NCBI RefSeq assembly: GCF_000737695.1
Contig: NZ_JPRM01000036.1
Location: 1-64,000 of the forward strand
Length of the DNA: 64,000 bases
Direction: 5' to 3'
DNA from: Flavobacterium hydatis
Lineage (GTDB): Bacteria > Bacteroidota > Bacteroidia > Flavobacteriales > Flavobacteriaceae
Shown: one piece after another, positions 27,057-48,524 of the stretch
Position numbering within the stretch: position 1 is the first letter of the stretch
Layout of the letters: each line of letters starts with the position of its first letter
The notes under the pieces: model-generated
The model's input: only the letters and a program-made list of their open reading frames with translations
Told to the model about the DNA's origin: nothing
Databases searched by the model: none
Translations under genes and position numbers: made by a program

Positions 27057-27087
27057 CTAATTTTGTCATGTATAAAATGAGACGACG

Positions 27088-28269: not shown

Positions 28270-28275
28270 CGTACC

Positions 28276-31200
28276 ATGTACCTCAATTGTCACTCTTTCC
28301 ATTCGCTGCGTTACGGTACGATACCCTTGACTGACTTGGTGCAGCAAGCTGTGCAATGCAATGTGAAAGCTATAGCACTCACGGACATAAATACAGTTAC
28401 AGGTATTTATGATTTTATCAAAGCATGTAAAGCAGTAGCTATTAAACCGCTTGTTGGTATCGAATTTCGCTGCAATAATGAATTGCGTTATATTGGGCTA
28501 GCCAAGAATGCTGAAGGTCTTGCAGAAATGAATCATTTTTTGACCAAGCATAATTTCGACAATACAGTTTTACCTTTAGAAGCGCCTGAATTCAAAGAGG
28601 TCTTTATAATTTATTCTTTTGAGAATGCTCCGACAACTTTGAAAGAATACGAGTATATCGGTATTCGTCCCGAAGAGCTTCCTAAATTATTTGGTTCCCA
28701 GTGGAAACAAAGACTTGATAAAATGGTCATTTTTCAACCTGTTACTTTCCGGGTTAAAAAAGAATTTAATCTGCATAAGATCCTAAGAGCTATTGATACA
28801 AATGTTATTCTATCGAAGCTTACCCTGAATGATTATTGCAAAACCTCTGAAGTGATGCTACCACTTGAAGAACTGATTTCAAAATTCAGCGATTATCCTC
28901 AGATTATTGGCAATACACAAGAAATTATAGACCAGTGTAATTTCGAATTTGATTTTAAAACCCCGAAAAACAAAAAGTACTATACCAACAGTAGAGCCAG
29001 TGATATGGCTTTACTTACCAGCCTCGCTAAGCAAGGTCTTCTCTGGAGATATGGTGCTACTAACGCTCAGGCTATAGCACGTGTCGAAAAGGAATTAAAA
29101 GTAATTGAAGAACTGGAATTCAGTGGCTATTTTTTAATAACCTGGGATATTATACGCTATAGTAATAGTTGCGGTTTTTTGCATATTGGACGTGGAAGTG
29201 GAGCCAATAGCATCGTAAGTTATTGTCTGGGCATTACTGATATCTGTCCAATAGAACTCGATTTGTACTTTGAACGCTTCTTGAATTTAAACCGTAAAAG
29301 CCCTCCTGATTTTGATATTGATTGGTCGTGGAAGGAACGTGATACCATATTGGAATATATTTTCAATAGGTATGGAGCTGATCACGTGGCATTTTGTGGA
29401 ACAAATGTGGAATTTAAATATCGGTCTATATTTCGGGAAGTCGGTAAAGTCTTTGGTTTACCCAAAGAAGAACTGGATATGCTGGCTAAAAATCCAATGG
29501 CTTTGCATGATGGAAACTCGGTGGTAAAGTATGTACAGGAATATGGGATGATGCTTGAAAAATACCCTAATCAACGCAGTATGCATTCTTGTGGGATAAT
29601 AATTTCGGAAGAGCCACTCACGAACTATACAGTGCTGGAAATGCCACCCAAAGGCTTTTCGATTGTATTGTTTGACATGCATATTGCAGAAGATATAGGT
29701 TTTGAAAAGTTTGATATCCTTAGCCAACGTGGTATCGGACATATTGACGACAGTGTGAAACTAATCGAAAAAAATCGTGGTATTAAAGTAGATATACGCA
29801 ATACTTCGTTATCTAAAAATGAAGCTAATGCCAATCTATATTTAGAACGCGGAAAAACAATTGGATGCTTTTATATTGAAAGTCCAGCCATGCGTGGATT
29901 ACTACGCCGCCTAAAATGTGATAATTATAAAACGCTGGTGGCAGCTTCATCCATAATCCGCCCAGGGGTAGCTCAATCAGGAATGATGAAAGAGTATATA
30001 TTCCGTCACAATTATCCTGATAAGTTTGAATATTTTCATGACGTATTCAAAGAGCAGTTAGGAGAAACCTATGGGATTATGGTATATCAGGAGGACGTGA
30101 TTAAAATTGCTTTGTATTATGGAGGTCTGCCAGCGGCCGATGGAGATATCTTGCGTCGTGCCATGAGCGGCAAGGGGCGTTCAAAAGAAGCTTTACAAAA
30201 AGTAAAGGACAACTTTTTTGCCTCCTGTCAGCAAAAAGGACATCCCATAAAGTTAAGCGAAGAAATATATCGACAAATTGAATCCTTTGCAGGGTATTCT
30301 TTCTGTAAAGCACATTCGGCATCTTATGCAGTAGAAAGTTATCAAAGTTTATACCTGAAGGTACACTATCCAATAGAGTTTATGGTAGCTGTTATAAACA
30401 ATCAGGGAGGCTTTTATCGTACGGAGGTATACATTCATGAGGCGCGAATGTCAGGTGCTATTGTGCATAATCCTTGTGTGAACAAAAGTGAATATGAAAC
30501 AAATTTGTATGGCATTGATATTTATCTTGGTTTGATGCATCTGGAAGGTTTGGAAACCAAAATAGCACAGTTTATAGTCAAAGAAAGGGATATGCATGGG
30601 GAGTTTAAATCTCTGGAAGATTTTATCAATCGCATTCCCATAGGAATTGAAGGCATCCAAATTTTGATTTTTATTGGTGCATTTCACTTTACTGGTAAAA
30701 CTAAAAATCAGTTACTGGTAATTGCCAGACTAATACTGGTGAATTTTAAGCCGGAAAACAGAAATCTGATGCTCATTCAGGAACCTGTTAAAGAATATAA
30801 ACTACCTGTATTGGAACGCTCTTCTTTTGAAGATGCCTTTGATGAAATAGAGTTATTGAGTTTTCCTGTGTCTTGTTCTCCTTTCGATCTCTTGCAAACG
30901 ACATACAGAGGTGCTGTAATGGCTAAAGATTTGGTAAAGAACCATAAGAAATCGGTAAAAATGCTCGCTTATCTTATTTCTAGAAAACATGTCCCTACCA
31001 AAAGAGGAACAATGTACTTTGGTACTTGGATTGACGTAGAGGGTGAATATTTCGATACAGCACATTTTACAGATTCACTGGAAAAATATCCTTTTCAAGG
31101 TGGTGGCTGTTATTTATTATTAGGAAATGTTGAGGTTGATTATCATTTTCCAACAATAACCGTTACTAAAATGGCTAAGATGCCCTTTATACCGGATCCA

Positions 31201-31332
31201 CGTTATTCTAATACTAACGACAGGCAATTTAAAGTACATGAGCATATTCGGGAAGACGTGAGTATGACACATCGTGCCCCATACCCACAAGAGCATGAAT
31301 ACAACATGCCACGGCATAAAATGGGACAGTAA
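28276..31332 (+). CDS. dnaE: DnaE-type DNA polymerase III α subunit, accessory copy
   Basis: This is a C-family polymerase of 1018 residues. The PHP domain is at the N-terminus (HSFHSLRYGTIPLTDLVQQA, ALTDINTVTGIYDF). The polymerase acids are in PPDFDIDWSW (about residues 344-353). Later motifs GRGSGANSIVSYCLGI and YSFCKAHSASYA are the DnaE signatures. At ~1018 residues it is shorter than housekeeping DnaE (~1160-1450) and close to DnaE2/error-prone types. It sits between dinB and an exonuclease, as in SOS mutasome cassettes (compare imuA-imuB-dnaE2). The PHP metal site looks partly degenerate by eye (HSFHSLRYG keeps the first His pair). Confidence 0.9.
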   Translation: MYLNCHSFHSLRYGTIPLTDLVQQAVQCNVKAIALTDINTVTGIYDFIKACKAVAIKPLVGIEFRCNNELRYIGLAKNAEGLAEMNHFLTKHNFDNTVLPLEAPEFKEVFIIYSFENAPTTLKEYEYIGIRPEELPKLFGSQWKQRLDKMVIFQPVTFRVKKEFNLHKILRAIDTNVILSKLTLNDYCKTSEVMLPLEELISKFSDYPQIIGNTQEIIDQCNFEFDFKTPKNKKYYTNSRASDMALLTSLAKQGLLWRYGATNAQAIARVEKELKVIEELEFSGYFLITWDIIRYSNSCGFLHIGRGSGANSIVSYCLGITDICPIELDLYFERFLNLNRKSPPDFDIDWSWKERDTILEYIFNRYGADHVAFCGTNVEFKYRSIFREVGKVFGLPKEELDMLAKNPMALHDGNSVVKYVQEYGMMLEKYPNQRSMHSCGIIISEEPLTNYTVLEMPPKGFSIVLFDMHIAEDIGFEKFDILSQRGIGHIDDSVKLIEKNRGIKVDIRNTSLSKNEANANLYLERGKTIGCFYIESPAMRGLLRRLKCDNYKTLVAASSIIRPGVAQSGMMKEYIFRHNYPDKFEYFHDVFKEQLGETYGIMVYQEDVIKIALYYGGLPAADGDILRRAMSGKGRSKEALQKVKDNFFASCQQKGHPIKLSEEIYRQIESFAGYSFCKAHSASYAVESYQSLYLKVHYPIEFMVAVINNQGGFYRTEVYIHEARMSGAIVHNPCVNKSEYETNLYGIDIYLGLMHLEGLETKIAQFIVKERDMHGEFKSLEDFINRIPIGIEGIQILIFIGAFHFTGKTKNQLLVIARLILVNFKPENRNLMLIQEPVKEYKLPVLERSSFEDAFDEIELLSFPVSCSPFDLLQTTYRGAVMAKDLVKNHKKSVKMLAYLISRKHVPTKRGTMYFGTWIDVEGEYFDTAHFTDSLEKYPFQGGGCYLLLGNVEVDYHFPTITVTKMAKMPFIPDPRYSNTNDRQFKVHEHIREDVSMTHRAPYPQEHEYNMPRHKMGQ

Positions 31333-31394
31333 AAATAAGATATTTCACATTGTTCCATTAGCAAGAACGCAATAAAAATCACGTTTTATAATAG

Positions 31395-32771
31395 ATGAAA
31401 AAACTGGAATATGCCATAGTAGATATAGAAACCACAGGCGGTAATGCCAGTGGCAGTTGTATTACGGAAATTGCAATTGTAATCCATGATGGTACAAACG
31501 TAATTGACCGCTTCGAAACACTTGTAAATCCGCAAAAGGAAATACCTCTTCCCATTTTTGCATTGACCGGCATAAACAATGAAATGGTAAAAAATGCGCC
31601 GATATTCGATGACATATCGGAGAAGGTATTAGAGATGCTTACGGGGCGTATCTTCGTTGCTCATAATGTTAACTTCGATTATTCGTTCGTTCGTCATGAA
31701 TTGGAGCAATCTGGGTTTAAATGGACAGCAAGAAAATTATGCACCGTTCGGGCAGCAAGAAAAATAAGACCTGGGCTAAGCTCTTATAGTCTGGGGAAAC
31801 TTTGTCATTCACTGGATATACCTTTGGAGAATCAACATCGTGCTGGTGGTGATGCGGATGCTACTACTATATTGTTTTCCCGATTACTACAATGGGATGA
31901 AGAGGACGAAATTGGCAAAATGGTAAAGATGACCGCACAAGATCAGCGTCTACCTCCAAATCTGCCTCCTGGAGACTTTGAGCAATTACCTGAAAAACCT
32001 GGCGTATATTATTTTTATAATCAGGCTAATAAAGTCATTTATGTAGGTAAGGCTGTCAATTTAAAAAAACGTGTCGCTTCACATTTTAGTGGGCACAAAA
32101 TTACACCCCAAAGACAGCATTTCTTAAGGGATATATACGCTATTTCTTTTGAGATATGTGCCACTGAGTTGATGGCACTGCTGCTAGAGTGTACTGAGAT
32201 TAAGAAACTTTGGCCAATATATAACAAGGCATTGAAACGCTTTGAAGCAAAATTTGGGCTTTACCAATATGAAGCACGTAATGGCTACAAGTATCTGGCA
32301 ATTGGCAAGATGAATAAATTTCAGAACTGTATTGAGGTTTTCAATACAATGTATGATGGCATAAACGTACTACAGAGTTTGGCAGAAAAGTTTGAGATCG
32401 ACTACAGGTTTTGTAAGTACTGCACCTCGACAAAAGCAGAAGGTCCTCAACAACATGACCTCACAAATCTGCCTGAGATTGAGCATCATAATCAGCAAAT
32501 AGAAAATGCCATTGATTATGTTTTAAAGAACAGGTCAAGCTTCTTTATTATCGATAAAGGTCGAACCACAGAGGAGCATAGTTGCATATGGATTGAAAAC
32601 GGACACTTTTATGGGATGGGCTATATCGCTTCGGATATTGGAATTACCGAACCAGCGGAGATTAAGGATTATATTACGCCTTATAAAAGCAATCATTATA
32701 TCATGCAGTTAATCTATGCTTATACGGAAAAACATCCAGGTAAAGTTCACGGTATGAAAAAGGAAAGTTAG
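31395..32771 (+). CDS. DnaQ-type exonuclease fused to GIY-YIG (UvrC-like) domain
   Basis: This 458-residue fusion has two nuclease domains. Residues 1-165 form a DEDDh exonuclease: Asp/Glu in AIVDIETTGG (D9, E11), HNVNFDYSFVRHE, and HRAGGDADATT. Residues ~200-285 form a GIY-YIG domain (PGVYYFYNQANKVIYVGKAV, then LKKRV) as in UvrC and Cho. The C-terminal ~170 residues are specific to this exonuclease-UvrC type, which is frequent in Bacteroidota. In the operon it could supply proofreading or end-processing for the accessory DnaE. It follows dnaE by 62 nt. Confidence 0.9.
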   Translation: MKKLEYAIVDIETTGGNASGSCITEIAIVIHDGTNVIDRFETLVNPQKEIPLPIFALTGINNEMVKNAPIFDDISEKVLEMLTGRIFVAHNVNFDYSFVRHELEQSGFKWTARKLCTVRAARKIRPGLSSYSLGKLCHSLDIPLENQHRAGGDADATTILFSRLLQWDEEDEIGKMVKMTAQDQRLPPNLPPGDFEQLPEKPGVYYFYNQANKVIYVGKAVNLKKRVASHFSGHKITPQRQHFLRDIYAISFEICATELMALLLECTEIKKLWPIYNKALKRFEAKFGLYQYEARNGYKYLAIGKMNKFQNCIEVFNTMYDGINVLQSLAEKFEIDYRFCKYCTSTKAEGPQQHDLTNLPEIEHHNQQIENAIDYVLKNRSSFFIIDKGRTTEEHSCIWIENGHFYGMGYIASDIGITEPAEIKDYITPYKSNHYIMQLIYAYTEKHPGKVHGMKKES

Positions 32772-32893: not shown

Positions 32894-34240
32894 TTAAATT
32901 ACGAATTTGCCCTGAAAATATTCAACAGTTATTTTTTTAAATTGTAGTTCATATTTTAATGCTGTGGTTTCATTTTGAATTTTAAGAAAATTATTTTTTT
33001 CTGTTAGATATTCGAAATAAGAAATAAAACCTTTTTCTTGTCTTATTGTTGCTGCCTTCAATGCTATTCCTGCATTCTCTAATGCACTTAGGGAAGAATT
33101 GTATTGTTGTAAGGTTCTTTTATACTCAATACAGGATTTATATATTTCCTGCTTTAATTTTTGTCTATTTTCTTCATCGGTTATTCTAGCTTTTTCCAAA
33201 CCAATTTTAGCACTTCTGATAGCATCTCTGGAAGAAAAATTATTAAAAATAGGAATATTAAGTCCTAATCCAACAAAGTGGGATAGGTTATTGTTAAACT
33301 GTTTTCCGAATGAAATTAATTGACGATCACCTGAAGGCAGTACCTCATAGTATGAAGAGGAATAGTTTGTACCTGATGAAAAATTTAAACTCAATTGAGG
33401 CAGTTCTTTCGCCTTGGTCAGTTGGATATCTTTTTCTGCTACTTGTACATTATAGGTGCTACTTTTAATCGAATGGATATAGGTTAATGCACTATTATAA
33501 ATAGCCTCAGGGTCTATTTCTTCAACTGATAAAAATACACTTTCATTTAAATTAGGAACAGGTACAATTTTTTGTTGCAAATCAATATTTAGTATAACCT
33601 TGAGATCAATTAAAGATTGCTCATAGTTTAGTAGTGCTTCTAAGTATATTCCTTTGTCATTGTAAAATTGTGTTTTGGCTTGGGAAAGCTCTAAGATATT
33701 ACTTCTCCCGGCTGTTGTAAGTTTTTCAATTCGGGTCTGATTATCAGTACTTATCTCAATTTGATACAATACATTAGTAATTTGTTCTTTGGCTAATAGC
33801 GCTCTGAGGTAGGCTGTTGCAACATTAAGCAAAAGATCATTTTTTAATTGTTCCATGCTCTCTTGTGCTATTTTATATTTTAATTCATTACTCTGTATAG
33901 CATACCTTTTTTGAAACCATCCAAAGAGTAATACACTTGATCCAGCGGATAATCCTAAAGAGGAAAATTTTGTATTTTCAAACTGGTTTGTTGTTGGATT
34001 TATTGAACGTCCAAAGCTAGTTCCATAATTTGAGGATAAGTTTAAACTTGGAATATGACTGTATTTACTGGATTGATAAATCATTTTCGCTGCTCTGGCA
34101 TCCAATTCATCTTGTTTAATCGACAAATTGTTTATTTGAGCATGTTCAATACATTTGGACAAGGTCCAGATAGAATCTTGTGCATAAGCTTGGCATAGTC
34201 CAAAATAACAGAGAATAAATAGTAATAATATCCTTTTCAA
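32894..34240 (-). CDS. TolC-type outer-membrane efflux channel
   Basis: This 448-residue protein is the outer-membrane duct of the peptide exporter encoded just upstream. The signal peptide is MKRILLLFILCYFGLCQAYA. Two TolC-like helical repeats follow, with FSSRDAIRSAKIGLEKARIT and the paired coiled regions. The sequence keeps the usual motif 'LSLNFSSGTNYSS' of outer-membrane strands. It is the last gene of the minus-strand export set (ABC, HlyD, TolC) serving the GG-leader peptide. It follows the HlyD gene by 67 nt. Confidence 0.9.
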   Translation of the reverse strand: MKRILLLFILCYFGLCQAYAQDSIWTLSKCIEHAQINNLSIKQDELDARAAKMIYQSSKYSHIPSLNLSSNYGTSFGRSINPTTNQFENTKFSSLGLSAGSSVLLFGWFQKRYAIQSNELKYKIAQESMEQLKNDLLLNVATAYLRALLAKEQITNVLYQIEISTDNQTRIEKLTTAGRSNILELSQAKTQFYNDKGIYLEALLNYEQSLIDLKVILNIDLQQKIVPVPNLNESVFLSVEEIDPEAIYNSALTYIHSIKSSTYNVQVAEKDIQLTKAKELPQLSLNFSSGTNYSSSYYEVLPSGDRQLISFGKQFNNNLSHFVGLGLNIPIFNNFSSRDAIRSAKIGLEKARITDEENRQKLKQEIYKSCIEYKRTLQQYNSSLSALENAGIALKAATIRQEKGFISYFEYLTEKNNFLKIQNETTALKYELQFKKITVEYFQGKFVI

Positions 34241-34307
34241 GAGGTGGTTAAATTTTAATTTAGTTAAATTTTAATTTTGAAAGTTTTCATAGTTAGATAA
34301 GCTAGCT

Positions 34308-35546
34308 TTATTTTTTCATCTGTTTTATAACATCATAATACAAGCTCTCTGCCAGTCGCATATCCTTGGTAACAATATCAGACTGTACTGTAAGTCCTTC
34401 GATAAAAGGAATCTCTTTATTATAATTTGTCTTCAGGTGATCTGGAAGTATTACTTTGACCAAATAATAGCCACTGTCGGCAGGAATTGGACTGATGTAT
34501 TCTACTTTACCGGTTACCTTACCATATTCATGAGAAGGGTAAGCATTAAATTTCAGGAATACTTTTTGTCCCTCTTTTACCTTACCAAAATTTCCCTGAG
34601 GCACAAGACTTTCAACATAGATTTCACTATTTTCTGGAATGATATACGCTATTATTTTACCGGCTTGTACTATTTGGTTTTCCTGCAAAAATGAAGTAAA
34701 AACTAACTTCCCTTTTTCAGTTGCTACTAAAAGATACCTGTTTTTCCAATCATCTATTTTACTTTTAAGATTATAAACTACTTGCTGAAATAAAGCTTGT
34801 TGCGAAACAATTTCCTTGTCCAATTCCACAATCTCTTTTTGAATTCCGTTTAATTCTGAAGAGTTGTTTATATAATTGGATTTCATTTGTGGTTGGGACA
34901 TCTTTTTTCCAATGTTTTGGCTTGTTAATTCTCTAAATTCTTGTTCAGATATAATATTTTCCTTTAGTAATTGCTTATTCTTTTCCAGCGTAGTTAAGTT
35001 TAACTGCAAATCGGCATTATACAATTCCTTTTGCTCATTTAGCACATTTCGTGATTGGTGGGCATTATTTAGGTCTTTGTTCAGAAGATTTTTCTTTTTG
35101 TTCGAGTAGTCGCCTAAAACATAATCACGGTAAGGGATATAAGCTTGCATAAATACTTGATAGTCACCTTGTAATTCTCCTAAATGACTAAACTCACTTT
35201 TCATTAATAGCTTCATAGTTTGAGGGTTATGTTCTTGTAACAGTGTATAAACCTCATCAATGAATTTTGAGAATTGCAATACCTCATCTACCTGGGCGGT
35301 TGATTCAAGGCTACCAATAATATCACCTTTATTTACTAATGAACCGTTTTTTTTATCCAATGAAATTAATCTGGCGGCTTGTTTTGCCATAATTGGCTTG
35401 GGTGCATTACTACCTGTCAATTTTGCTTTTGAGGAAACTGTTTCCGGATATTGAATAAACCATGTTAAAATCCCTATAAACAATAAAATCCCAAAAGTAA
35501 TCGGAGTTCCATATCTGCTTAAAATGTTGGGTTTGATGTTGTCCAT
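34308..35546 (-). CDS. HlyD-type periplasmic adaptor of peptide exporter
   Basis: This 412-residue membrane-fusion protein has one N-terminal helix (TPITFGILLFIGILTWFIQY, about residues 14-33). A lipoyl/β-barrel part and a long coiled-coil (about residues 85-250) follow, then a C-terminal HlyD β-domain (VESLVPQGNFGKVKEGQKVF, then LKFNAYPSHEYG). It bridges the C39-ABC transporter in the inner membrane with the TolC-like channel. It starts 10 nt after the ABC gene. Confidence 0.92.
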   Translation of the reverse strand: MDNIKPNILSRYGTPITFGILLFIGILTWFIQYPETVSSKAKLTGSNAPKPIMAKQAARLISLDKKNGSLVNKGDIIGSLESTAQVDEVLQFSKFIDEVYTLLQEHNPQTMKLLMKSEFSHLGELQGDYQVFMQAYIPYRDYVLGDYSNKKKNLLNKDLNNAHQSRNVLNEQKELYNADLQLNLTTLEKNKQLLKENIISEQEFRELTSQNIGKKMSQPQMKSNYINNSSELNGIQKEIVELDKEIVSQQALFQQVVYNLKSKIDDWKNRYLLVATEKGKLVFTSFLQENQIVQAGKIIAYIIPENSEIYVESLVPQGNFGKVKEGQKVFLKFNAYPSHEYGKVTGKVEYISPIPADSGYYLVKVILPDHLKTNYNKEIPFIEGLTVQSDIVTKDMRLAESLYYDVIKQMKK

Positions 35547-35556
35547 TTCTATATAA

Positions 35557-37827
35557 TTAATTACCTAATTCCAATTGATTTTTTACTAGTTCAAAATATT
35601 TACCCTTTAGTGCGGTTAGCTTTGAATGCGTTCCTTCTTCAACAATTTTGCCTTGTTCAAGTACTACAATTTTATCAGCGTTTTTTACCGTGCTTAATCG
35701 ATGAGCGACAACTACGACGGTTCTTCCCTTAAAGAAAGACTCCAGATTTTCAAGAATTACTTTTTCATTATTGGCATCAAGAGAATTGGTGGCTTCGTCA
35801 AACAATAATATATCAGGGTTTTTATACACCGCACGGGCTATTAGAATTCTTTGTTTTTGTCCCGCACTAATTCCATTTCCTTCCATTCCAATCTTAGTAA
35901 GAAAACCTAAAGGTAATGTCTCAATAAAAGGCAGGATATTTGCCACAGTAGCCGCATATTCTAAACGGGCTCTATCGGGTTCTTCAACCCCTACAGCAAT
36001 ATTGCCACTTACAGTCTCACTGAAAATATAACCATCCTGCATCACACTTCCAATTCTGGACCTCCAGTGTTCAGGAATGATCATCTTTAATTCCTGATTT
36101 TTAGATAGTAGTTCTTTTTCGGCGGCTAATAGTAGCTCATTTTGTGCTTCCCAAATTCTAATACTACCCTTATATTTATCGTCATAAAATTTTTGTAGAA
36201 TTTTCAAAATTGTTGTTTTTCCACTTCCGCTCATCCCTACAATAGCAGTGACTTTTCCAGCCGGAATCTCTAAATCAATATTTTTTAGTACTTGTTCATC
36301 TTCGCCAGAAAAATAGCCGAATGTTAAGTTTTTGATTGATATACCAATTTGTGCATTTTCTGTTTTTGAGCCTGAAACGGGACCTTCGGGTTCATCTTCT
36401 TCCTGATGTATTTCATTTAGTCGTTCTAATGCAATATTTGCATCCTGGAATTCCTGAATAAAACTGATGAATTGCTGGATGGGACTATTTAGCGCTCCCA
36501 GAATATATTGAATAGCTAACATCGCTCCTAAGGTTAGATCACCCTTAATTACGGATGTAGCAACTATTGCTGTAACAAGAAGATTTTTTCCTTCATTTAT
36601 AAATAAAGCACCTGCAGTTTGTGCCTGATTAAGAGATAGATTTTTAAAGCCAATACTGAATAGCCCTCTTTGCATATTTTCCCATTTCCATCGAAAAGGT
36701 TTCTCTGCATTGTGCATTTTAATCTCCTGCATCCCTTGCACCATTTCCAATGTGGCGCTATTTTCTCTGGATGCTAAAGCAAACTGTTTATAATTAAGCT
36801 TTCTTCTTTGTTTTAAAAATAACGTAACCCAAAAGATATATAATGCACTTCCAATGATAAATATTAAAAACACCTGAAAACTATAGAGTAGCATTACAAA
36901 TGAGTAAACCACTAGATTCATTAATGAGAAAAGAATATTGATGCTGTTTCCGGTAAGAAACCGCTCTATTTTATGTTGATCACCAATCCTCTGCATAATA
37001 TCGCCAGTCTGCTTGGTATCAAAATATGAAATAGGTAAACGCATTAATTTTTTCCAAAAATCAGTAAGTAGTGAAAGATTAATCCTTGTACTGATAAATA
37101 AGAGTAGTCCTTGTCTGGAAAATTCTACGATTGCTCTTCCCAGCATTAATACGAATTGCGCAACAAGGACAATATATATAAAATTAATATCTTGTGTATT
37201 TATCCCTTTGTCTACGATACTTTGTGTTAGAAATGGTATCATTAACTGAAGAACACTCGCTACCAATAAACCTAAGATGATCTGAAAAAAGTATCCTTTG
37301 TGTTGAAATAAATAGCCTGATAATTTACCCCATGAGAGTTTCTTATTTACCTGCTTTTCATGACCAAACTCGTCTTCACTGTTATTGAATTCAAGTGATG
37401 GTTCCAGAAGCAAAGCAATTCCTTTATGTTGAGTATCTCCTAACCACATCTGTTTAAATGTGTCCCCCTCAATAGTCAAAAGACCATCTGTGGCGGGATC
37501 TGCAACTAGAAAATTCCAATTTTTAGGACTGGATTTGGTATTGGTTATTTTATGTAATACCACAAAATGACTGCTTTTCCAATGCAGTATAGAAGGCAGA
37601 GGGATGTCCTTTAAATCTTCAATGCTAACTTTTACTCCTAGTGTATTAAATCCTATTTGTTCAGCAGCATTGCTAATGTAATACATATTAACACCTTGCT
37701 TACCTGTTTCACAGATTCGTCTTAATTTGTTTATACTGTACTCTTTTCCATATTGTTTAGCTACCATTCTTAAACAGGTAGCACCACAATCCATTTTGTC
37801 CAATTGTTTATAAAAAACGTATTTCAA
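35557..37827 (-). CDS. Peptidase-containing ABC transporter (PCAT, C39)
   Basis: This 756-residue exporter cleaves double-glycine leaders and pumps the released peptide. The C39 peptidase is at residues 1-140, with catalytic Cys14 (KMDCGATCLR), His87 (SSHFVVLHK) and Asp110 (VADPATDG). A six-helix membrane domain occupies about 170-470. In the ATPase domain Walker A is GMSGSGKTT, the signature is GISAGQKQRI and Walker B is DILLFDEATNSLD. Its substrate is most probably the 82-residue precursor with the VTGG leader upstream in the same locus. The signature SAGQ instead of SGGQ is a mild variant. Confidence 0.94.
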   Translation of the reverse strand: MKYVFYKQLDKMDCGATCLRMVAKQYGKEYSINKLRRICETGKQGVNMYYISNAAEQIGFNTLGVKVSIEDLKDIPLPSILHWKSSHFVVLHKITNTKSSPKNWNFLVADPATDGLLTIEGDTFKQMWLGDTQHKGIALLLEPSLEFNNSEDEFGHEKQVNKKLSWGKLSGYLFQHKGYFFQIILGLLVASVLQLMIPFLTQSIVDKGINTQDINFIYIVLVAQFVLMLGRAIVEFSRQGLLLFISTRINLSLLTDFWKKLMRLPISYFDTKQTGDIMQRIGDQHKIERFLTGNSINILFSLMNLVVYSFVMLLYSFQVFLIFIIGSALYIFWVTLFLKQRRKLNYKQFALASRENSATLEMVQGMQEIKMHNAEKPFRWKWENMQRGLFSIGFKNLSLNQAQTAGALFINEGKNLLVTAIVATSVIKGDLTLGAMLAIQYILGALNSPIQQFISFIQEFQDANIALERLNEIHQEEDEPEGPVSGSKTENAQIGISIKNLTFGYFSGEDEQVLKNIDLEIPAGKVTAIVGMSGSGKTTILKILQKFYDDKYKGSIRIWEAQNELLLAAEKELLSKNQELKMIIPEHWRSRIGSVMQDGYIFSETVSGNIAVGVEEPDRARLEYAATVANILPFIETLPLGFLTKIGMEGNGISAGQKQRILIARAVYKNPDILLFDEATNSLDANNEKVILENLESFFKGRTVVVVAHRLSTVKNADKIVVLEQGKIVEEGTHSKLTALKGKYFELVKNQLELGN

Positions 37828-37894
37828 TTTGGTAGATAATTAAGGAAATTAAAATTAAATTTTGATTTTATAACCCGGTTATAGTTTACAATAC

Positions 37895-38980
37895 TTATTG
37901 ATTTTTGATTAATTCCTGTAAGCCATAGTGAGAGATTCCTTTTTCTTTTAAAGGATTCGTACTCCATTCTTCCCACTCACAGGTATAAGGGTTATAACCA
38001 CATTTTAATGGAGCTGAATAAATATCATCCGGCACGTCGATAAATGCTCTGCAATCGGTACAGATATGTCGAAATTCGCAGTCCTGACATTTCGTGATTT
38101 GATCCTTTGTTATATTCCAGTATTTTTTAAAATCGGGATTAGCCAAAGCTTCTTTTAAAGTTGTATCTCGAATATTTCCATAACTTTCTTTCATCGATGG
38201 ACAGTTTTTAATATTGCCCTCTGTATCTATCGCGATTTTACGGTTTAAACACGTATTAGAATTTAATGATTCTGTATAATGCAAAACGTTAATTGAAAAT
38301 TGCTCTAACTGTACTAAACCACAATGCAAATTGTTTGTAATATTCTTATCCGTTAATACCGCAGTTCCTGAGAAATCATCTGGTTGTAGTATTTTATATT
38401 CATCCGCTGAAGTAATAATTAAATTCTTCACCTTACGATTGAATTCTAAAAAATGAACAATATTTTTTTCGTCTCTTAAATAATTATTTATGGGAAGTAC
38501 TATTTCCAGAGATTTAATCTGATTCTCATTTATTAACGTTAGAACTACATCCAAATCTTCTTGCTCGACTGGAGAAAAAAAACGTAACTGAATATGATTG
38601 CAGCAAAGTTCCTCGAGCTGCAGGAAAAAATGCTCGTTAAGAAATTCAATAGTACCATTGCTATCGATTATACAATTTGTAATATGGGCAGGAAAACGCC
38701 ATTCTTCAGACATCTTTGGGAAAATTGCTAATTCATCACTATCGCAATAGAAACCTAATTCATTGTCGATTAAAAATTCTATATATTCATCTAAGATTGG
38801 ATAATGTTTTTCCTCAATAATTTGCTTTGTTTTCAGCACATTAATGGCATATACCTGTTGATCTATGAGATCATAAAGGGATAATGGAATAAAGAAAATT
38901 TGTTCTCTCTGTATGTCTACAACAGCAGCTCTGCTACTGCCTTTTGTAATAGTACAACAACTGAATATTTTAATATACAT
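37895..38980 (-). CDS. gwsS: Grasp-with-spasm system SPASM-domain protein
   Basis: This 361-residue protein resembles the SPASM-domain maturase of grasp-with-spasm RiPP systems. The SPASM Cys set is clear: CLNRKIAIDTEGNIKNCPSM, then KCQDCEFRHICTDCRAF, then LKCGYNPYTCEW. The N-terminal two-thirds looks like a radical-SAM-type barrel with β/α alternation, but I find no CxxxCxxC cluster motif; the only N-terminal cysteines are SCCTITKG near residue 8. The protein may therefore be a non-catalytic scaffold or recognition partner of the ATP-grasp enzyme. It ends 68 nt before the ABC gene and starts 2 nt after the small 71-residue gene. Confidence 0.82.
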   Translation of the reverse strand: MYIKIFSCCTITKGSSRAAVVDIQREQIFFIPLSLYDLIDQQVYAINVLKTKQIIEEKHYPILDEYIEFLIDNELGFYCDSDELAIFPKMSEEWRFPAHITNCIIDSNGTIEFLNEHFFLQLEELCCNHIQLRFFSPVEQEDLDVVLTLINENQIKSLEIVLPINNYLRDEKNIVHFLEFNRKVKNLIITSADEYKILQPDDFSGTAVLTDKNITNNLHCGLVQLEQFSINVLHYTESLNSNTCLNRKIAIDTEGNIKNCPSMKESYGNIRDTTLKEALANPDFKKYWNITKDQITKCQDCEFRHICTDCRAFIDVPDDIYSAPLKCGYNPYTCEWEEWSTNPLKEKGISHYGLQELIKNQ

Positions 38981-38982
38981 TT

Positions 38983-39198
38983 CTATTTTAGTTTCACTAT
39001 TCGGGAAATGGGTTTGTAAAATTTATTTGTACTCAGGTCGATGGAATTATATTTACCAAAAGACATTTCTCTTACGGTTATTTCTATTGCGTTATTTTCA
39101 TATACATTAATATCCCAATAGTCAACATTAAGGGGGAGTATTTCTTTATTGGCATTTATCCATTCTCTTATTTCAGAAGTTATTTTGTCTTTATCCAT
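38983..39198 (-). CDS. Small protein in grasp-with-spasm locus
   Basis: This 71-residue protein is encoded between the ATP-grasp and SPASM genes. It overlaps the 3' end of the ATP-grasp gene by 8 nt and ends 2 nt before the SPASM gene, so it is under tight translational coupling. It has a helix (KITSEIREWINANKEI) and β strands (YWDINVYENNAIEITVREM), with no Cys, no signal peptide and no GG motif. It is not an obvious precursor. It might be a peptide-binding chaperone. I do not recognise a family. Confidence 0.7.
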   Translation of the reverse strand: MDKDKITSEIREWINANKEILPLNVDYWDINVYENNAIEITVREMSFGKYNSIDLSTNKFYKPISRIVKLK

Positions 39199-40162
39199 AA
39201 TACATTAAATCTTCTGCAATTTCTTTGCTTATTGGATAATTGCAATTTTTCTCCAGCCATTGGTACTGTCCAATTGGATTAACTTCCAAGAAGACATATT
39301 CATTATCTGTAGAGTAGATTAAATCCAAAGAGCCTGTGTCTAAACCTATACACTGCATAAAGGCCGTAATCTTGCGTTGTATCTCATATGGTAACGTATA
39401 GGGAACAGTTCTGTTGGGCATATCTTTATCGTAATTCCTAAAATCTATTTTGGTTTTTTCATTTCGTTGTGAAAAAATAGCCATTGAATAAAATTTACCT
39501 CTTAAATAAAACACCCGCAATTCATATTTTTTTTCAATATATTGTTGAAATAATGCCGGTGTACAGTTTTCAATGTTATTGTTTTTAAAACTTTCGGGAG
39601 TAATAATCGTAGTTGCTAAAGTCAATGAGCAATTAAATCCTGGATAGTTTTCAAGAGTCATAAGGTCAATATCTATAGCTTTGGTTATTATCTTCGAAGG
39701 ACACAATGCCATAAATTCATTTAATTTTTTCGTTTTCCCAGTGACAATGCTTTTAGGTACCTTTAAGCCTGAACGCACTGCCAGAACCAGCATCTGTATC
39801 TTGTCAATTGTATTATCAGTGTATTTACCTATAGCATTCTTCCCTGAGGCCAAATCCACTTTAGCATAGGCAGAATCAATCTCTTTAGATAAAGGTATAC
39901 TAAGTTTCTGAGCCAAATAAGTAAGGTTTTTTAGCTTGTTTTTAGGAGTGCGTAAATTTCCTCTTCTGTACCAATACGAACTTATTTCTTCAAGATCCAA
40001 TTGAGTATTTTCAAAGCTAAATAGAACTTTCTCATCGATACTAATACTCTCGACAGCAATGGAGTCATTTAATCGTAAGACCGGACCACTCTTGGAAAAA
40101 TATAGCCAATCCAAAACGTCATTCGTTGAAAAGTCATCACGAATGCTTTGTATAACAATCAT
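39191..40162 (-). CDS. gwsG: Grasp-with-spasm system ATP-grasp peptide maturase
   Basis: This 323-residue ATP-grasp ligase is related to graspetide enzymes that make ω-ester or ω-amide crosslinks between Asp/Glu and Ser/Thr/Lys side chains of a precursor. The start at 40162 is fixed by an ATGA overlap with the upstream gene's stop. Visible ATP-grasp elements are KSGPVLRLND, SYWYRRGNLRTPKN (about 63-76, a hallmark of the graspetide group), VTGKTKKLNEFM and PALFQQYIEKKYELRVFYL. The C-terminal metal-binding block is GSLDLIYSTDNEYVFLEVNP followed by GQYQWLE. Confidence 0.88.
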   Translation of the reverse strand: MIVIQSIRDDFSTNDVLDWLYFSKSGPVLRLNDSIAVESISIDEKVLFSFENTQLDLEEISSYWYRRGNLRTPKNKLKNLTYLAQKLSIPLSKEIDSAYAKVDLASGKNAIGKYTDNTIDKIQMLVLAVRSGLKVPKSIVTGKTKKLNEFMALCPSKIITKAIDIDLMTLENYPGFNCSLTLATTIITPESFKNNNIENCTPALFQQYIEKKYELRVFYLRGKFYSMAIFSQRNEKTKIDFRNYDKDMPNRTVPYTLPYEIQRKITAFMQCIGLDTGSLDLIYSTDNEYVFLEVNPIGQYQWLEKNCNYPISKEIAEDLMYYG

Positions 40163-41106
40163 TCTTTTATAACCAATGGTTGATTCAACGAATAAATGCA
40201 AAGGAATGGATCTAAAAAACAATAATCGCCTCTATAGTATAGCTCATTTTTAGTATGATAGGCAACTTTACGAATATAGTCTTCGATAGGCTCTAGATAA
40301 ATTTCGGCTCTTTTTTTATTGATAGCATCTAGTTCCTCTTTAGTAATTGGATCATAGGGAACAGCTACAGGATAATCACTGCCTTGGTAAAAAAATCCCA
40401 TTGCGAATCTTCGGGCATCATAGACCCCCTTTTTCACATTTTCAAGTCCTATACTATATATTTCTTCCTCTGTAAATCCACGTGCATGCCAAAGCATCAT
40501 ATCAAAATTACCTACATTGGTAGCTTGAATTACACCTTCCTCCAGCACACCAACTTTTTTATAACTGGGAAAACCATAAGTAGCGATAAAAGCATATAAT
40601 TGTTCTCGTACGTTTCGATCACAACTTAAGAGATTATCTTCGGAGCCATTATTTCTGCAGTCTTGATCCATCTTGAAGATTGCATCCATTTTTTTTGCTA
40701 ATAAGGGCATTTCACTCTTCATTACTTTCTCATGGATATTTTTATAATCTTTTGTAACAAAATCAATGTATGGATTCGGTTTAGGGTCAGAGTGTAAAAA
40801 GTATTTAATGAATTTTTCTTTATCCTGACCGAGTGCTGCAAGATCGTTAAAGTATTGGATAGACTTTATTGTATCTTTCATAAAATAAGAAACGGCAAAC
40901 GCGTTAAATTTATCGGAAGGAAAAGAATAGCCCGTTCCAAATGCTTTTTCATAATTTTTTTTTGCCTCAGGTAGTTTATTATCAATTATTGAAAGTTCCG
41001 CCAAATTTATAGTATAGTAGTAATCTCTTAGTAAGGTTTCACTCTGGGCATAGCAATTTAGAGTCAGATTTAAACAACAAATAAATATATAAAAGTGTCT
41101 TTTCAT
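40159..41106 (-). CDS. Exported TPR-like protein in RiPP locus
   Basis: This is a 315-residue protein with a cleavable signal peptide (MKRHFYIFICCLNLTLNCYA). The next ~100 residues form helical, TPR-like repeats (YTINLAELSIIDNKLPEAKK, NYEKAFGTGY). The C-terminal half (LLAKKMDAIFKMDQDCRNNG; FIATYGFPSYKKVGVLEEGV; then DMMLWHARGF) looks like the DUF6624-type domain of periplasmic proteins. It sits between the precursor and the ATP-grasp gene with ATGA coupling to the latter. It may act on the exported peptide or confer self-protection in the periplasm. The role is inferred from position only. Confidence 0.7.
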   Translation of the reverse strand: MKRHFYIFICCLNLTLNCYAQSETLLRDYYYTINLAELSIIDNKLPEAKKNYEKAFGTGYSFPSDKFNAFAVSYFMKDTIKSIQYFNDLAALGQDKEKFIKYFLHSDPKPNPYIDFVTKDYKNIHEKVMKSEMPLLAKKMDAIFKMDQDCRNNGSEDNLLSCDRNVREQLYAFIATYGFPSYKKVGVLEEGVIQATNVGNFDMMLWHARGFTEEEIYSIGLENVKKGVYDARRFAMGFFYQGSDYPVAVPYDPITKEELDAINKKRAEIYLEPIEDYIRKVAYHTKNELYYRGDYCFLDPFLCIYSLNQPLVIKE

Positions 41107-41218
41107 ATTGATTTATGATATGGAATAATATAGTATTGAATAATATGAAATGGAATGATACTTAATTAGTTTAAGTACCATTCCAAAATCAAAAAATAAA
41201 CAGTTTAATAAAAATAGA

Positions 41219-41467
41219 TTAAACTATTGTAACCCAATTGCCTTTCATGTCTTGCAACTCCAGGCAGGTATATTCTCCTGTATCCAAATCTTGAGTAAAT
41301 TTGTCAGCTTTTACATAGTACTTAACTCCTTTATGAACAAACAGCATAGGTTGACCTTCTCGAGGTGATTGGCTGCTTCCTTCTCTCTCTGCACCACCTG
41401 TAACATTTTTCAATTGTTCTTTAGTAAGTGGTTCAAATCTTGTAGATTTTAATGTTTCTAATTGCAT
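41219..41467 (-). CDS. Grasp-with-spasm precursor peptide (GG leader)
   Basis: This 82-residue peptide starts the RiPP operon. The leader holds STRFEPLTKEQLKNVTGG, a typical Bacteroidota double-glycine leader ('LxxxELKxVxGG') that the C39 transporter should cleave after GG (residues 25-26). The ~56-residue core is rich in Ser, Glu, Asp, Lys and Tyr (AEREGSSQSPREGQPM; later TQDLDTGEYTCLELQD), suitable for Asp/Glu side-chain crosslinking. The single Cys argues against disulfide or lanthionine chemistry. It is separated by 112 nt from the next gene. The core resembles no peptide family known to me. Confidence 0.82.
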   Translation of the reverse strand: MQLETLKSTRFEPLTKEQLKNVTGGAEREGSSQSPREGQPMLFVHKGVKYYVKADKFTQDLDTGEYTCLELQDMKGNWVTIV

Positions 41468-41821
41468 AATTAATAGATTAAAAATGGTTGATTAATCCCT
41501 TAAACGCACATGGGTTTAGCGCTTCCTTTATTTCATTTTTTCTTTGGTCTAATAAAAGGTAAGACCGCAATCTATCGCGACTAAATATTTTTATATTGGT
41601 TTGAACTTTTATCACTACATAAAACAGCTTCATTTTTATTAAAAAACAACACAAAACGCTATCATATAATAATAATGATAGTAATTCAATTAAAATTTAA
41701 AAGTATTTTTACGATATTATAGGGTCGAATGTAAAAAGAAAACCCATACAGATAATTACTACAAATACAGAATTAACAAATGAGATAGTAGAACCCCCAT
41801 TTGTGTTAATTATTTTAACAA
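41468..41821. other. Intergenic region upstream of RiPP operon
   Basis: No gene is seen in these 354 nt. They should carry the promoter of the precursor-to-TolC operon (minus strand). An inverted repeat CTATCAT (41659-41665) with ATGATAG (41675-41681) lies in the middle and may be a regulator site. The response-regulator gene ends at 41822. Confidence 0.5.
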
Positions 41822-42481
41822 TTATAAAAATCCCTGCTTAATTACTTCTTTTACAAGGTTACTGTCATCTAGTACTCCAAAGATTTTCTTTAAGTCTACA
41901 ATGCGTCTTTGAATCGTGCTGGCAGCTAATGGTATTACTTCTTCCAGCTCTTTAACTCTGTAGCCTTTAGCTAAGTAAAAAAGAATTTGTCTGTTGGTGT
42001 CTTCTACCATTAACTCCTTTTTCCAAATTTCGCTAACATATTCTTTTACCAATACACTTTGATACAGATTACCTTCTAAAACATGGGTAATCATATCGCT
42101 AAAACTTGAAGTAGTTACATCCGATTTTATAGCAATTCCTTCGGGTTTGATTTTCCTTATAATATCATACACTAAAAGCTTTTGTGTATGTGATGTTATA
42201 ATTATGATTTTACAGTTTTCAAAATATTTTCTAATTAAGTTCGCCAGGTCAGCTCCGGATAAAATATTTTTCTCTTGATAAGTTGGTAAAGAATAATCCA
42301 GAATTGCTAAATCAAAAAATAGTTCATGATTTAACTTAGCATACTCAGTCGCTATATAACCTCCTTTGCAGTCAAATGCTTTTGTAATAACAAGAGGCTT
42401 GTAGGATGCAAAATCTTGTAGAAGTACATTTTCATATAATTCTACATTCATAGGATGGTCATCTACGATAAGAATATTCAT
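41822..42481 (-). CDS. Response regulator with LuxR/NarL-type HTH
   Basis: This is a 219-residue two-component regulator. The receiver domain has the acidic pair DD (residues 7-8), phospho-acceptor Asp62 (AILDYSLP), and Lys in IAIKSD. The C-terminal HTH (RQILFYLAKGYRVKELEEVI, then AASTIQRRIVDLKKIF) is of the NarL type. It is a close paralogue of the regulator at 59799-60473 (shared LIVDDHP, LDxSLP, KPEG, KSD blocks). No kinase gene is adjacent. It lies directly upstream of the RiPP operon on the same strand, so it may control it; it could also respond to a kinase encoded elsewhere. Confidence 0.85.
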   Translation of the reverse strand: MNILIVDDHPMNVELYENVLLQDFASYKPLVITKAFDCKGGYIATEYAKLNHELFFDLAILDYSLPTYQEKNILSGADLANLIRKYFENCKIIIITSHTQKLLVYDIIRKIKPEGIAIKSDVTTSSFSDMITHVLEGNLYQSVLVKEYVSEIWKKELMVEDTNRQILFYLAKGYRVKELEEVIPLAASTIQRRIVDLKKIFGVLDDSNLVKEVIKQGFL

Positions 42482-45715: not shown

Positions 45716-46683
45716 AACACCAGTTTCTGCCACTATTTGAACAGGGCGAAGAAATACCAAATTCTAAAGAAACTGAAAAAGGATTTTTTGATTCGTTGAG
45801 CATCCTGACAGGATTATATGGATTCGAACAGATAGAAGTAGAGCGCAAACCCTATCCGTACAATATCTTGTTGGCACATAAGTACGCTCAAAGACAACTT
45901 GAAAAATCAGGTCAGGATATTGAACTTGTCATTATGCAGGATGATGATGGAGTCGTAAAATTGACAACCAACCATAGTTATAATACAGGTACAACCCTGT
46001 ATTACATTCCGGTGCTTCCTTTGTACAGATTGTTACAGGACAAAAAACAGAAACGAACTGCCGAACTTCTGCTGTCGGTGTTTAGCTATCTCTATCATAT
46101 TGCAGGGATTCCCTACTACAGGGAGAATCATACCTATCTATTTTATCAGTATGAATGTATGGAAGAATGGTTGATAGATGATTTGGAAAATTGCAATAAT
46201 GAAGATGCGAACCGTGAATTTTCAGAATTTAACGAGGCAAACTACTACGGGGATATAATGCTACAAAAAATATACAATCCTTATCATCTGAATGTTTTTA
46301 AACAGCGAATCGATACCTACAAGCCAACGTCTTCTTTTGGTCGGGATTGCCTAAATGTTGCACAAAAAGCCTTTGCCCTGTTAAGTGATTATCCCGATGC
46401 CAGCATTTTTAGAAACACCCTAAATCAGGAACTTGATGAAGATGATAGCATCATACACGCAGAACAATACATCTCTTTTATTGCCGATAGCGATGGTATG
46501 CTGTATGAGAATATTGCCCGTGTTGTGAATGATGAATTTAATGAATGTGGGGAAATCGAAGAACCTACACTACAGCAAATCTATGATAGTGAAAACAACC
46601 CATCAAAACAAGCGCTTGATTTTGAATACCGAATTTTCCCTTTGATTAATGAACTATGTACCCTTTTAAACCATATACCATGA
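45592..46683 (+). CDS. PRTRC system protein F-like
   Basis: This frame of 363 residues encodes an acidic, helical protein: FLKHQFLPLFEQGEEIPNSK, DSLSILTGLYGFEQIEVERK, PVLPLYRLLQDKKQKRTAEL, FSYLYHIAGIPYYRENHTYL. Position and size fit PRTRC system protein F. The true start is uncertain: ATG 45592 lies inside the 58-codon ORF, and protein-like sequence begins only about residue 33 (STLGTLTDGFLKHQF). The stop overlaps the next gene's start (ATGA at 46680-46683), confirming operon structure. Confidence 0.7.
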   Translation: METIPTVRRLGRKHQPLARCAGNQKQQTHVSTLGTLTDGFLKHQFLPLFEQGEEIPNSKETEKGFFDSLSILTGLYGFEQIEVERKPYPYNILLAHKYAQRQLEKSGQDIELVIMQDDDGVVKLTTNHSYNTGTTLYYIPVLPLYRLLQDKKQKRTAELLLSVFSYLYHIAGIPYYRENHTYLFYQYECMEEWLIDDLENCNNEDANREFSEFNEANYYGDIMLQKIYNPYHLNVFKQRIDTYKPTSSFGRDCLNVAQKAFALLSDYPDASIFRNTLNQELDEDDSIIHAEQYISFIADSDGMLYENIARVVNDEFNECGEIEEPTLQQIYDSENNPSKQALDFEYRIFPLINELCTLLNHIP

Positions 46684-47396
46684 AAGATATAACAGCAACA
46701 TTCGGGACATTGTACACTCCTGTAAAAGCTCTTGTAGTATATCAGAAAAATACGTCTGACAAGACCATTTATGTGGAAAGCTACGACATGGACAAAAATG
46801 GTTATCCAACCAACGCCCATCCCTTAAGCCTAAAGGAAAGTACACAACTTGCCAATGCTTTAGATACTTCTGACGAACTGGGTCGCAACTTTTTGAAACC
46901 TTTAGGACTGCTCCCTAAAAATGTATTGTACATTAATCCCGACCATGACGTTTATGCCATTTGGCATACCCCATCCCAGAAGGTAGATTTGTTTTTTGTC
47001 GAGAATTTAGGCATTCCAAACGGCAAAGCGTCAATACCTGCTTTGCTTTGGAAAGCCTCTAAAAATACACTTTGGATATATGCTTTGGACGCAACTACAG
47101 CCATTACAGAAACGACCCCTTTACACCATGCCCCCTACTTTAATCTATACCCCGATGGTAGGGTTTGTATGGGAACCGTTTCAATCAATATTAAAACAGA
47201 TTGCGGATTAGAAGAATTTATTTGCTTGTGGGAGCAGTATTTTTTTAATAGTTATTTCAGTCATCTCATTAGCGAAAAAAGTCCTGTGAAAGGAAACATC
47301 ATTCAATTGTGGCAGAGTCTTATTAATACCCGAAAAAAGTTCCCTATGAAAGTACTAATAAAAAATGGTCTAACCCTTAAAAAACTACTGTCATGA
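46680..47396 (+). CDS. PRTRC system protein B
   Basis: This is a 238-residue protein starting at ATG 46680 by ATGA overlap. It matches PRTRC-B: VENLGIPNGKASIPALLWKA, LWIYALD, and the conserved APYFNLYPDGRVCMGTVSIN near residues 144-163. The function is unknown. The longer form starting at 46656 would add 8 residues overlapping the upstream gene and is less likely. It is coupled to the ThiF gene by another ATGA overlap. Confidence 0.88.
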   Translation: MKDITATFGTLYTPVKALVVYQKNTSDKTIYVESYDMDKNGYPTNAHPLSLKESTQLANALDTSDELGRNFLKPLGLLPKNVLYINPDHDVYAIWHTPSQKVDLFFVENLGIPNGKASIPALLWKASKNTLWIYALDATTAITETTPLHHAPYFNLYPDGRVCMGTVSINIKTDCGLEEFICLWEQYFFNSYFSHLISEKSPVKGNIIQLWQSLINTRKKFPMKVLIKNGLTLKKLLS

Positions 47397-48196: not shown

Positions 48197-48203
48197 TGCC
48201 CGC

Positions 48204-48250
48204 CGCCCCGCAATTGCACTTCCTTCGTCGGGACAATTGCGGGGCGTTTT
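48204..48250 (+). terminator. Strong terminator after PRTRC operon
   Basis: CGCCCCGCAATTG (48204-48216) pairs perfectly with CAATTGCGGGGCG (48234-48246) over 13 bp, followed by TTTT. It begins 7 nt after the ThiF stop. Confidence 0.9.
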
Positions 48251-48258
48251 ATCGGATA

Positions 48259-48308
48259 CGCCCGCTTGCACAGAACATGCCTTTATTGGCAGTTCATGCA
48301 AGCGGGCG
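48259..48308. repeat. Second GC-rich hairpin
   Basis: CGCCCGCTTGCA (48259-48270) pairs perfectly with TGCAAGCGGGCG (48297-48308). Inside the loop GAAC and GTTC can also pair. It may act as a backup terminator or an element-end structure. Confidence 0.7.
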
Positions 48309-48524
48309 CGAAGTTTTTCTTCTTTTTTTAGATTAATTTACTCAACTAAGTCTGTTTTTGTTAAAAAAAACATTTTAGATTACATCTAACTACTATGATA
48401 TTCATATCTTTTTAGTGTTTATACTGCTTGACATGAAATGTTTATAAGTTGATTTCGCGACAGTAAACAATGGAATTGTATATTCTGATTATATATAAAT
48501 ATTGCTTTTATAAAAACTATTCAC

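Follow-up and report, generated by a model that had tools for sequence, protein, structure and literature searches.

A grasp-with-spasm operon of Flavobacterium hydatis whose SPASM protein lacks the radical-SAM cluster motif and may act as a leader-binding partner

The operon and its class

The DNA analysed here, called the window, is a stretch of 64,000 nucleotides from Flavobacterium hydatis (RefSeq assembly GCF_000737695.1, contig NZ_JPRM01000036.1, positions 1 to 64,000 of the forward strand). Between positions 32894 and 42481 it carries nine open genes, all on the minus strand, which constitute one complete grasp-with-spasm operon for a ribosomally synthesised and post-translationally modified peptide (RiPP; Table 1). 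The genes are transcribed in the order response regulator, precursor peptide, 315-residue protein, ATP-grasp synthetase GwsG, LPL-type small protein, SPASM protein GwsS, C39 peptidase-ABC transporter, HlyD-type adaptor and TolC-type channel. They are tightly packed in the middle of the operon: gwsG shares 4 bp with the gene of the 315-residue protein and 8 bp with the LPL-type gene, and the latter is separated from gwsS by 2 bp. A simple Bacteroidota promoter pattern found no match upstream of the precursor and the response regulator.

A prediction made earlier from the sequence alone (the original prediction) had described this interval as a complete grasp-with-spasm RiPP locus that includes a dedicated C39 exporter. 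Every gene that it named is present, on the minus strand and with the boundaries that it gave; the response regulator, which lies inside the same interval, was missing from its list. The class assignment is backed by hidden Markov model scores above the family cut-offs, by synteny and by conserved synthetase residues. An ATP-grasp gene falling outside the GwsG clade had been named beforehand as the result that would speak against this assignment; that result was not obtained, as GwsG scores above the TIGR04192 cut-off.

The class is already in print, and the window holds a fresh member of it with its own core sequence. It corresponds to ATP-grasp branch 5 of PMC8939145, which comprises 190 loci and is described there as the largest of the poorly characterised ATP-grasp groups. 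Branch 5 loci encode a SPASM protein, a small LPL protein directly upstream of it, diverse precursors with a double-glycine (GG) leader, and a cluster-23 protein that often has a signal peptide and contains a conserved His and Arg; TIGR04193 appears in a table of the same paper (PMC8939145). The window has the same gene content: GwsG (TIGR04192), GwsS (TIGR04193), a GG-leader precursor, an LPL-type protein, a cluster-23-like protein, a C39-ABC transporter and an HlyD protein. Its core peptide is distinct, being near that of Flavobacterium poyangense and farther from those of some Chryseobacterium. In PMC13097080 the class is, by our inference, graspetide group 14. The parts of the literature examined describe no characterised product for it.

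Table 1. Features of the grasp-with-spasm operon, in order of transcription (positions in the window)
Feature	Position	Strand	Basis
Orphan response regulator, 219 aa, opens the conserved cassette	41822..42481	-	PF00072, 33.6 bits against 30.2
Precursor peptide, 82 aa, double-glycine leader	41219..41467	-	TIGR01847, 16.9 bits against cut-off 15.7
Precursor leader, residues 1-25, end NVTGG	41393..41467	-	
Predicted core, residues 26-82, 57 aa	41222..41392	-	
315-aa protein, signal-peptide-like start, helical, family reaching DUF6624	40159..41106	-	Family profile
GwsG, ATP-grasp graspetide synthetase, 323 aa	39191..40162	-	TIGR04192, 245.1 bits against cut-off 230
LPL-type small protein, 71 aa, ends FYKPISRIVKLK	38983..39198	-	Between gwsG and gwsS; carries EILPLNVD
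GwsS, SPASM-domain protein, 361 aa, without radical-SAM motif	37895..38980	-	TIGR04193, 326 bits against cut-off 175
GwsS residues 1-90, predicted RiPP recognition element (RRE)	38711..38980	-	bbb-aaa order, one additional preceding strand
GwsS residues 95-235, shortened radical-SAM-like barrel without cluster motif	38276..38698	-	Model, fold matches, motif count
GwsS residues 240-335, SPASM domain	37976..38263	-	PF13186, 25.3 against 21.5 bits; TIGR04085; Cys conservation
C39 peptidase-ABC transporter, 756 aa	35557..37827	-	PF03412, PF00664, PF00005
HlyD-type periplasmic adaptor, 412 aa	34308..35546	-	PF13437; TIGR01843 under its cut-off
TolC-type outer-membrane channel, 448 aa	32894..34240	-	PF02321

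GwsS lacks the radical-SAM motif

The SPASM protein of branch 5 has been taken as a radical S-adenosylmethionine (SAM) enzyme, with C-C, C-O or thioether bonds as its possible products (PMC8939145). In contrast, the GwsS family examined here has no radical-SAM motif. Three overlapping sets of GwsS were counted, consisting of 20 proteins from a first round, 75 full-length proteins from a contig scan and 119 distinct proteins after pooling. CX3CX2C was found in none of them (0/20, 0/75 and 0/119, the window protein included), the looser CX2-9CX2C was absent from residues 81-180 of all 119, and GGE occurred in a single protein of the 119. All 15 control SPASM proteins, which were fetched as weak matches by the TIGR04193 search, do have CX3CX2C. 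Among Pfam matches of GwsS at E<=0.1 the SPASM domain was reported and the radical-SAM domain was not, and pseudo_rSAM_GG (TIGR04150) was absent from the NCBIfam matches at E<=0.1. When its profile was compared with those of 12 controls out of the 15, only residues 241-344 of the window GwsS aligned, which is the SPASM part (probability 96.8). By these counts GwsS looks like no canonical radical-SAM enzyme, its catalytic centre having apparently been lost, and this argues against a second, radical cross-linking enzyme in the operon.

The SPASM domain itself retains its cysteines. C244, C260, C298, C301, C307, C310 and C327, together with the preceding C220, make up two predicted four-Cys ligand sets for iron-sulphur (Fe-S) clusters. 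We call Cys 220, 244, 260 and 310 the AuxI set and Cys 298, 301, 307 and 327 the AuxII set, an assignment that we assume by analogy with anSME. Over the 119 GwsS proteins the numbers of AuxI and AuxII cysteines were 4 and 4 in 99 proteins, 0 and 4 in 17, and 3 and 4, 1 and 0, and 0 and 0 in one protein each, so that the predicted sets appear to be gained or lost as blocks. On a quick tree, a branch with a Shimodaira-Hasegawa-like approximate likelihood ratio (SH-aLRT) of 99 set apart the 100 rows that have three or more AuxI cysteines; the rows without AuxI formed divergent groups near the midpoint root. The residues G14 and D22 of the predicted RRE described below were kept in all 17 AuxI-less proteins, and G14, P32, Y66 and L70 in both proteins without SPASM cysteines. 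The predicted leader-binding part thus seems to outlast the clusters, although the extreme case is represented by few proteins. A second grasp-with-spasm locus on contig 42 of the same genome (L053, 8501-10844) also encodes a GwsS without the AuxI set, and has a candidate precursor of 47 residues.

Predicted architecture of GwsS

Comparison of a GwsS profile with the sequences of the PDB gave no credible relative, the best match being a chain named OT3 at E 0.022; therefore folds were compared. An AlphaFold2 model built from 68 sequences had a mean predicted local distance difference test (pLDDT) score of 94.1 and a predicted template modelling (pTM) score of 0.88. In the model an RRE-like N-terminus is followed by a shortened radical-SAM-like barrel and then by the SPASM domain. 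The strict definition of an RRE is the order bbb-aaa, that is, three strands followed by three helices (PMC12710340). The model has exactly this order, with strands 9-13, 18-22 and 27-31 and helices 33-38, 48-54 and 57-72, preceded by an extra strand 2-5. The N-terminal part matched the lasso RRE TbiB1 (Z 8.5, root-mean-square deviation (rmsd) 3.0 over 79 residues), TruD (Z 7.0) and MccB (Z 6.2).

About four b/a units are left of the barrel, and this region matched PqqE, BtrN and anSME at Z 10-11; barrel and SPASM domain together matched PqqE at Z 10.9. The whole chain matched TigE (Z 11.4, 300 residues, rmsd 7.6) and 5wgg, which we take to be CteB (Z 11.1, rmsd 6.7). The five best chains in Foldseek had E values of 1.1e-6 to 5.3e-5, and all of them are radical-SAM/SPASM maturases. 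TigE, CteB and SuiB carry an RRE, and the order RRE, barrel, SPASM in the GwsS model is like theirs. GwsS differs from them in that its barrel is shortened and the motif for the SAM-binding cluster is missing.

Synthetase, precursor and predicted link

GwsG has relatives with solved structures among the microviridin and chryseoviridin synthetases, namely AMdnB (7m4s), 5ig9 and 5ig8 (presumably MdnC and MdnB) and CdnC (7mgv). These synthetases bind the leader themselves. The start of GwsG was taken as the ATG at 40162 in preference to a TTG at 40222. The DFR motif, which is called critical in graspetide synthetases (PMC13097080), is D240-F-R242 in GwsG. Among 113 distinct GwsG of at least 280 residues, D240 was kept in 113 and R242 in 110, and the ATP-grasp residues E293 and N295 in 111 and 113, respectively. 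For all 109 gwsS reading frames of more than 180 residues, a gwsG lies no more than 1.5 kb away on the same strand.

The precursor gene lies upstream of gwsG, and its GG-leader pattern is common to the relatives. Whereas the original prediction had put the core at about 56 residues, 57 residues follow the GG. The unmodified core has a monoisotopic mass of 6521.18 Da, which one link would lower to 6503.17 Da. The window precursor is 76% identical to that of the F. poyangense locus (L063), and Cys68 is kept in both. A leader rule gave 126 precursor candidates (120 unique, some of them doubtful open reading frames (ORFs)) for 96 of 129 gwsG genes. Thr at positions GG+4 to +8 is moderately enriched, occurring in 79 of the 120 candidates against a mean of 52.6 (standard deviation 5.0, highest 67) in 1000 shuffles. 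Leaders are closer to each other than cores, with mean pairwise identities of 0.52 and 0.23 in 13 precursors. In a gapped alignment of 19 chosen relatives, which include those 13 (from the window, L063 and Chryseobacterium), the column of window Asp55 is Asp in 17 of the 19, and the column of Gly30, which adjoins Ser31 and Ser32, is Thr in 12. From this conservation of Asp55 and the Thr column beside Ser31 and Ser32, an ester from Ser31 or Ser32 to Asp55 is predicted as the most likely link; its hydroxyl side is the less certain one in this gapped alignment.

The LPL-type and DUF6624-like proteins

The original prediction had left two proteins uncharacterised; both are present and can now be placed, one as LPL-type and the other as a probably secreted protein of a family that extends to DUF6624. 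The first is a small protein directly upstream of the SPASM gene and contains the LPL motif, as expected of the LPL family. In 99 of 109 pairs an ORF of 40-110 residues is found between the two gws genes, although some may be chance frames. A loose [LIVM]P[LIVMF] motif was found in 54 of the 109 pairs, and a strict C-terminal KPISK-like motif was about as common (56 of 103 pairs with a gap below 400). The tails of LPL-type proteins often read [FY]xKPISK[IL] (gwsG-gwsS gaps of L040-L139, e.g. L063 8780-8995), and this might be a docking tail.

The 315-residue protein had no family match of its own, PF20329 (DUF6624) included. Of 842 ORFs with 180-500 residues, 49 matched a profile of 10 relatives at E<1e-4 (the 10 do so by construction), and 8 of 37 aligned family members matched PF20329 at E<=0.05 (best 1.1e-19). 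H207 is invariant in the family, and D147, Q148, G186, G227 and R266 are nearly so. As the sole query, the window protein found matches in 4 of 395 genomes of the order, its own included. Its model (pLDDT 82.1) is all helical, with the last 26 residues unreliable, and had no Foldseek match at E<=0.001; the best was at E 0.054, with mostly TPR-like chains below it. The protein is probably cluster 23 of PMC8939145. DUF6624 is frequent in graspetide groups 18, 20, 23 and 42 (PMC13097080).

Relatives and genomic surroundings

Contigs were scanned with the GwsS alignment, using one pattern from its SPASM part. The best 80 of 573 matches represent 77 loci, and gwsG was matched at all 77. The closest of these is L063 of F. 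poyangense, where all nine genes recur in identical order and encode proteins 73-94% identical to those of the window. Chance grouping of the genes is excluded by this colinearity and by the gwsG match at every one of the 77 loci. The DNA of the window and L063 aligns as a single stretch of 9610 alignment columns at 86.8% identity. The match begins 12 bp ahead of the response regulator and stops 2 bp past TolC, and these ends mark the limits of the cassette. The response regulator is 92% identical and also first in the L063 cassette; F. shii (L134) has one that is 85% identical, upstream of a different gwsG/gwsS pair. Of 395 sampled genomes of the order, 51 had GwsS-like matches at E<=0.001, some of them weak. 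TIGR04193 was matched in 30 of 395 genomes of the phylum at E<=0.001, and in 12 over the cut-off. Two further GwsG-like places exist in the F. hydatis genome: the contig 42 locus, which includes a GwsS, and a fragment close to the end of a contig. A comparison of GwsG with plasmids gave 56 records, all below 60% identity, the closest being two Elizabethkingia plasmids at 32-33%.

Genes for SusC, SusD, an S9 peptidase and MauE (window 10458-19541) are colinear with F. poyangense. There, SusC is about 2.4 kb from the cassette. The window homologue (10458-13511) stands on the opposite side at a distance of about 19 kb, and the order differs, so either the cassette or its neighbourhood has been rearranged. 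A relaxase (PF03432) and a type IV secretion system (T4SS) coupling protein (YWFCY, T4SS-DNA_transf) at 21416-24723 point to a mobilisable or conjugative element near the operon. A HEPN AbiU2-like protein (PF18734, 25532-26182) lies between the coupling protein and an S24 regulator. The region 26233-32771 contains this S24/HTH regulator and then, judged by their translations, genes for two apparent DNA polymerases, one of the Y family and the other DnaE-like, and for an apparent exonuclease. Y-family polymerase and S24 genes are likewise close to the related gws locus L004 on an Elizabethkingia plasmid. On the other side of the operon, 46656-56768 contains Prok-E2_D and ThiF genes and a dnd-like set of PAPS reductase, AAA_23, DndE with a HerA/FtsK-like ATPase, DndB and a class-V aminotransferase; we take these to be PRTRC-like and Dnd genes, partly backed by their Pfam names. 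At 59799-62936 a second response regulator, 37% identical to that of the cassette, adjoins a TPR-histidine kinase that might serve both regulators.

Proposed mechanism and alternatives

On balance, we favour a scheme in which GwsS is a leader-binding pseudo-radical-SAM partner or scaffold, GwsG makes the cross-link, and the operon makes and exports one graspetide; we hold it to be somewhat probable. The N-terminal RRE of GwsS would hold the precursor leader. With its SAM-binding cluster lost, GwsS would act as a scaffold in which the SPASM domain is structural, and would present the core to GwsG. GwsG, using ATP, would then cross-link side chains, Asp55 with Ser31 or Ser32 being the most likely pair, and each link would lower the mass by 18 Da. 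Contact between GwsG and GwsS is probably mediated by the LPL-type protein. The C39 domain would cut after the GG (residue 25), and the ABC-HlyD-TolC exporter would release the 57-residue peptide; by analogy with the family, secretion of a cross-linked peptide from this locus is expected. The DUF6624-like protein is probably secreted and may have a role in immunity or late maturation.

There is a precedent for GwsS as the partner of GwsG. The DFR-motif synthetase of rosaritide (group 21, MirB/MirC) needs a partner with a weakly RRE-like N-domain, as tested by experiment, and this partner dependence is called unprecedented among characterised graspetides (PMC13097080). Rosaritide differs in that the C-domain of MirC is SurA-like, with no SPASM domain, that it comes from Micromonospora, and that its three linkages were demonstrated experimentally (PMC13097080).

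Several points weigh against the scaffold proposal. The strongest is that both Cys sets are whole in 99 of the 119 GwsS proteins, which hints that the clusters may do more than hold the fold: they matter in those proteins, and a pure scaffold need not require them. The RRE of GwsS and the GwsS complex are predictions. The TM-scores of the five best Foldseek chains were 0.32-0.39 on the query, and the full-length rmsd values were high (6.7-7.6). By the tool's own caution, a Z near 8, as for the RRE part, can reflect a common arrangement, and the RRE reading therefore leans on Z, element order and context jointly. Cys9 (61/68) and Cys127 (52/68) are common outside the SPASM region, where they form no cluster motif. 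Whether AuxI was lost or gained hinges on the midpoint root, and D22 and R17 are each kept in one of the two GwsS without SPASM cysteines. Finally, the Thr enrichment draws on candidates that include doubtful ORFs, and the window precursor has Ser at these positions.

Retention of the eight-Cys set is also what would be expected if the Fe-S clusters of GwsS carried out SAM-free chemistry or sensing, such as redox gating of the modification. Pseudo-radical-SAM families are named in NCBIfam (TIGR04150, pseudo_rSAM_GG; TIGR04347), and the first of these, which is presumably IPR026418, resembles GwsS in being a pseudo-radical-SAM protein of a Bacteroidota RiPP system. Proteins of IPR026418 accompany a true radical-SAM enzyme, and pseudo-radical-SAM proteins, which have no shown function, may work with a partner enzyme (PMC10352776). 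Loss of the AuxI set in 17 of 119 proteins and of nearly all SPASM cysteines in two speaks against such a function, and we regard it as unlikely.

Less likely still is delivery of the leader by the LPL-type protein in a PqqD-like role (PMC8939145), GwsS doing something else. The regular presence of a small ORF between gwsG and gwsS and the shared C-terminal motif fit this role. On the other hand, 58 of 107 such ORFs are shorter than 65 residues, the lower bound for an RRE in PMC12710340 (that of the window has 71), and an RRE-like fold is predicted within GwsS itself.

We consider it very improbable that GwsS is a working radical-SAM maturase, as proposed in PMC8939145, which would add a further bond to the ATP-grasp product (C-C, C-O or thioether, for example at Cys68). 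The whole SPASM Cys sets, the fold matches to the radical-SAM peptide maturases SuiB, TigE and 5wgg, and the retention of Cys68 in the window and L063 would suit such an enzyme; the CX3CX2C motif that all controls possess is missing from all 119 GwsS, as is CX2-9CX2C in residues 81-180, GGE is nearly so, and no radical-SAM Pfam match was found. That the locus is an inert or decayed mobile passenger is hardly credible, because the relaxase and coupling protein nearby and the stops within gwsS of some relatives (e.g. G524, G072) stand against nine open genes that match F. poyangense closely over 9610 bp and at the protein level.

Significance

The published expectation for the class is a second, possibly radical, modification. 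The loss of the motif from GwsS is a point added to this published class, and it may have been remarked on earlier in Haft and Basu 2011 or in the TIGR04193 text. If GwsS is a leader-binding partner, the predicted product shifts to one formed by loss of water only, co-expression with GwsG as the sole enzyme should be unsuccessful, and the idea of a dead radical-SAM enzyme that has become a scaffold can be put to the test. Extended tentatively to Bacteroidota as a whole, a step for which we put the chances a little short of even, grasp-with-spasm graspetides would be made without radical chemistry. GwsS would then be a dead radical-SAM enzyme reused as an RRE-bearing, Fe-S-stabilised scaffold that hands over the leader, and its clusters would have been lost stepwise, the SAM-binding cluster in all, AuxI in some and both auxiliary clusters in a few, while the leader-binding domain was kept.

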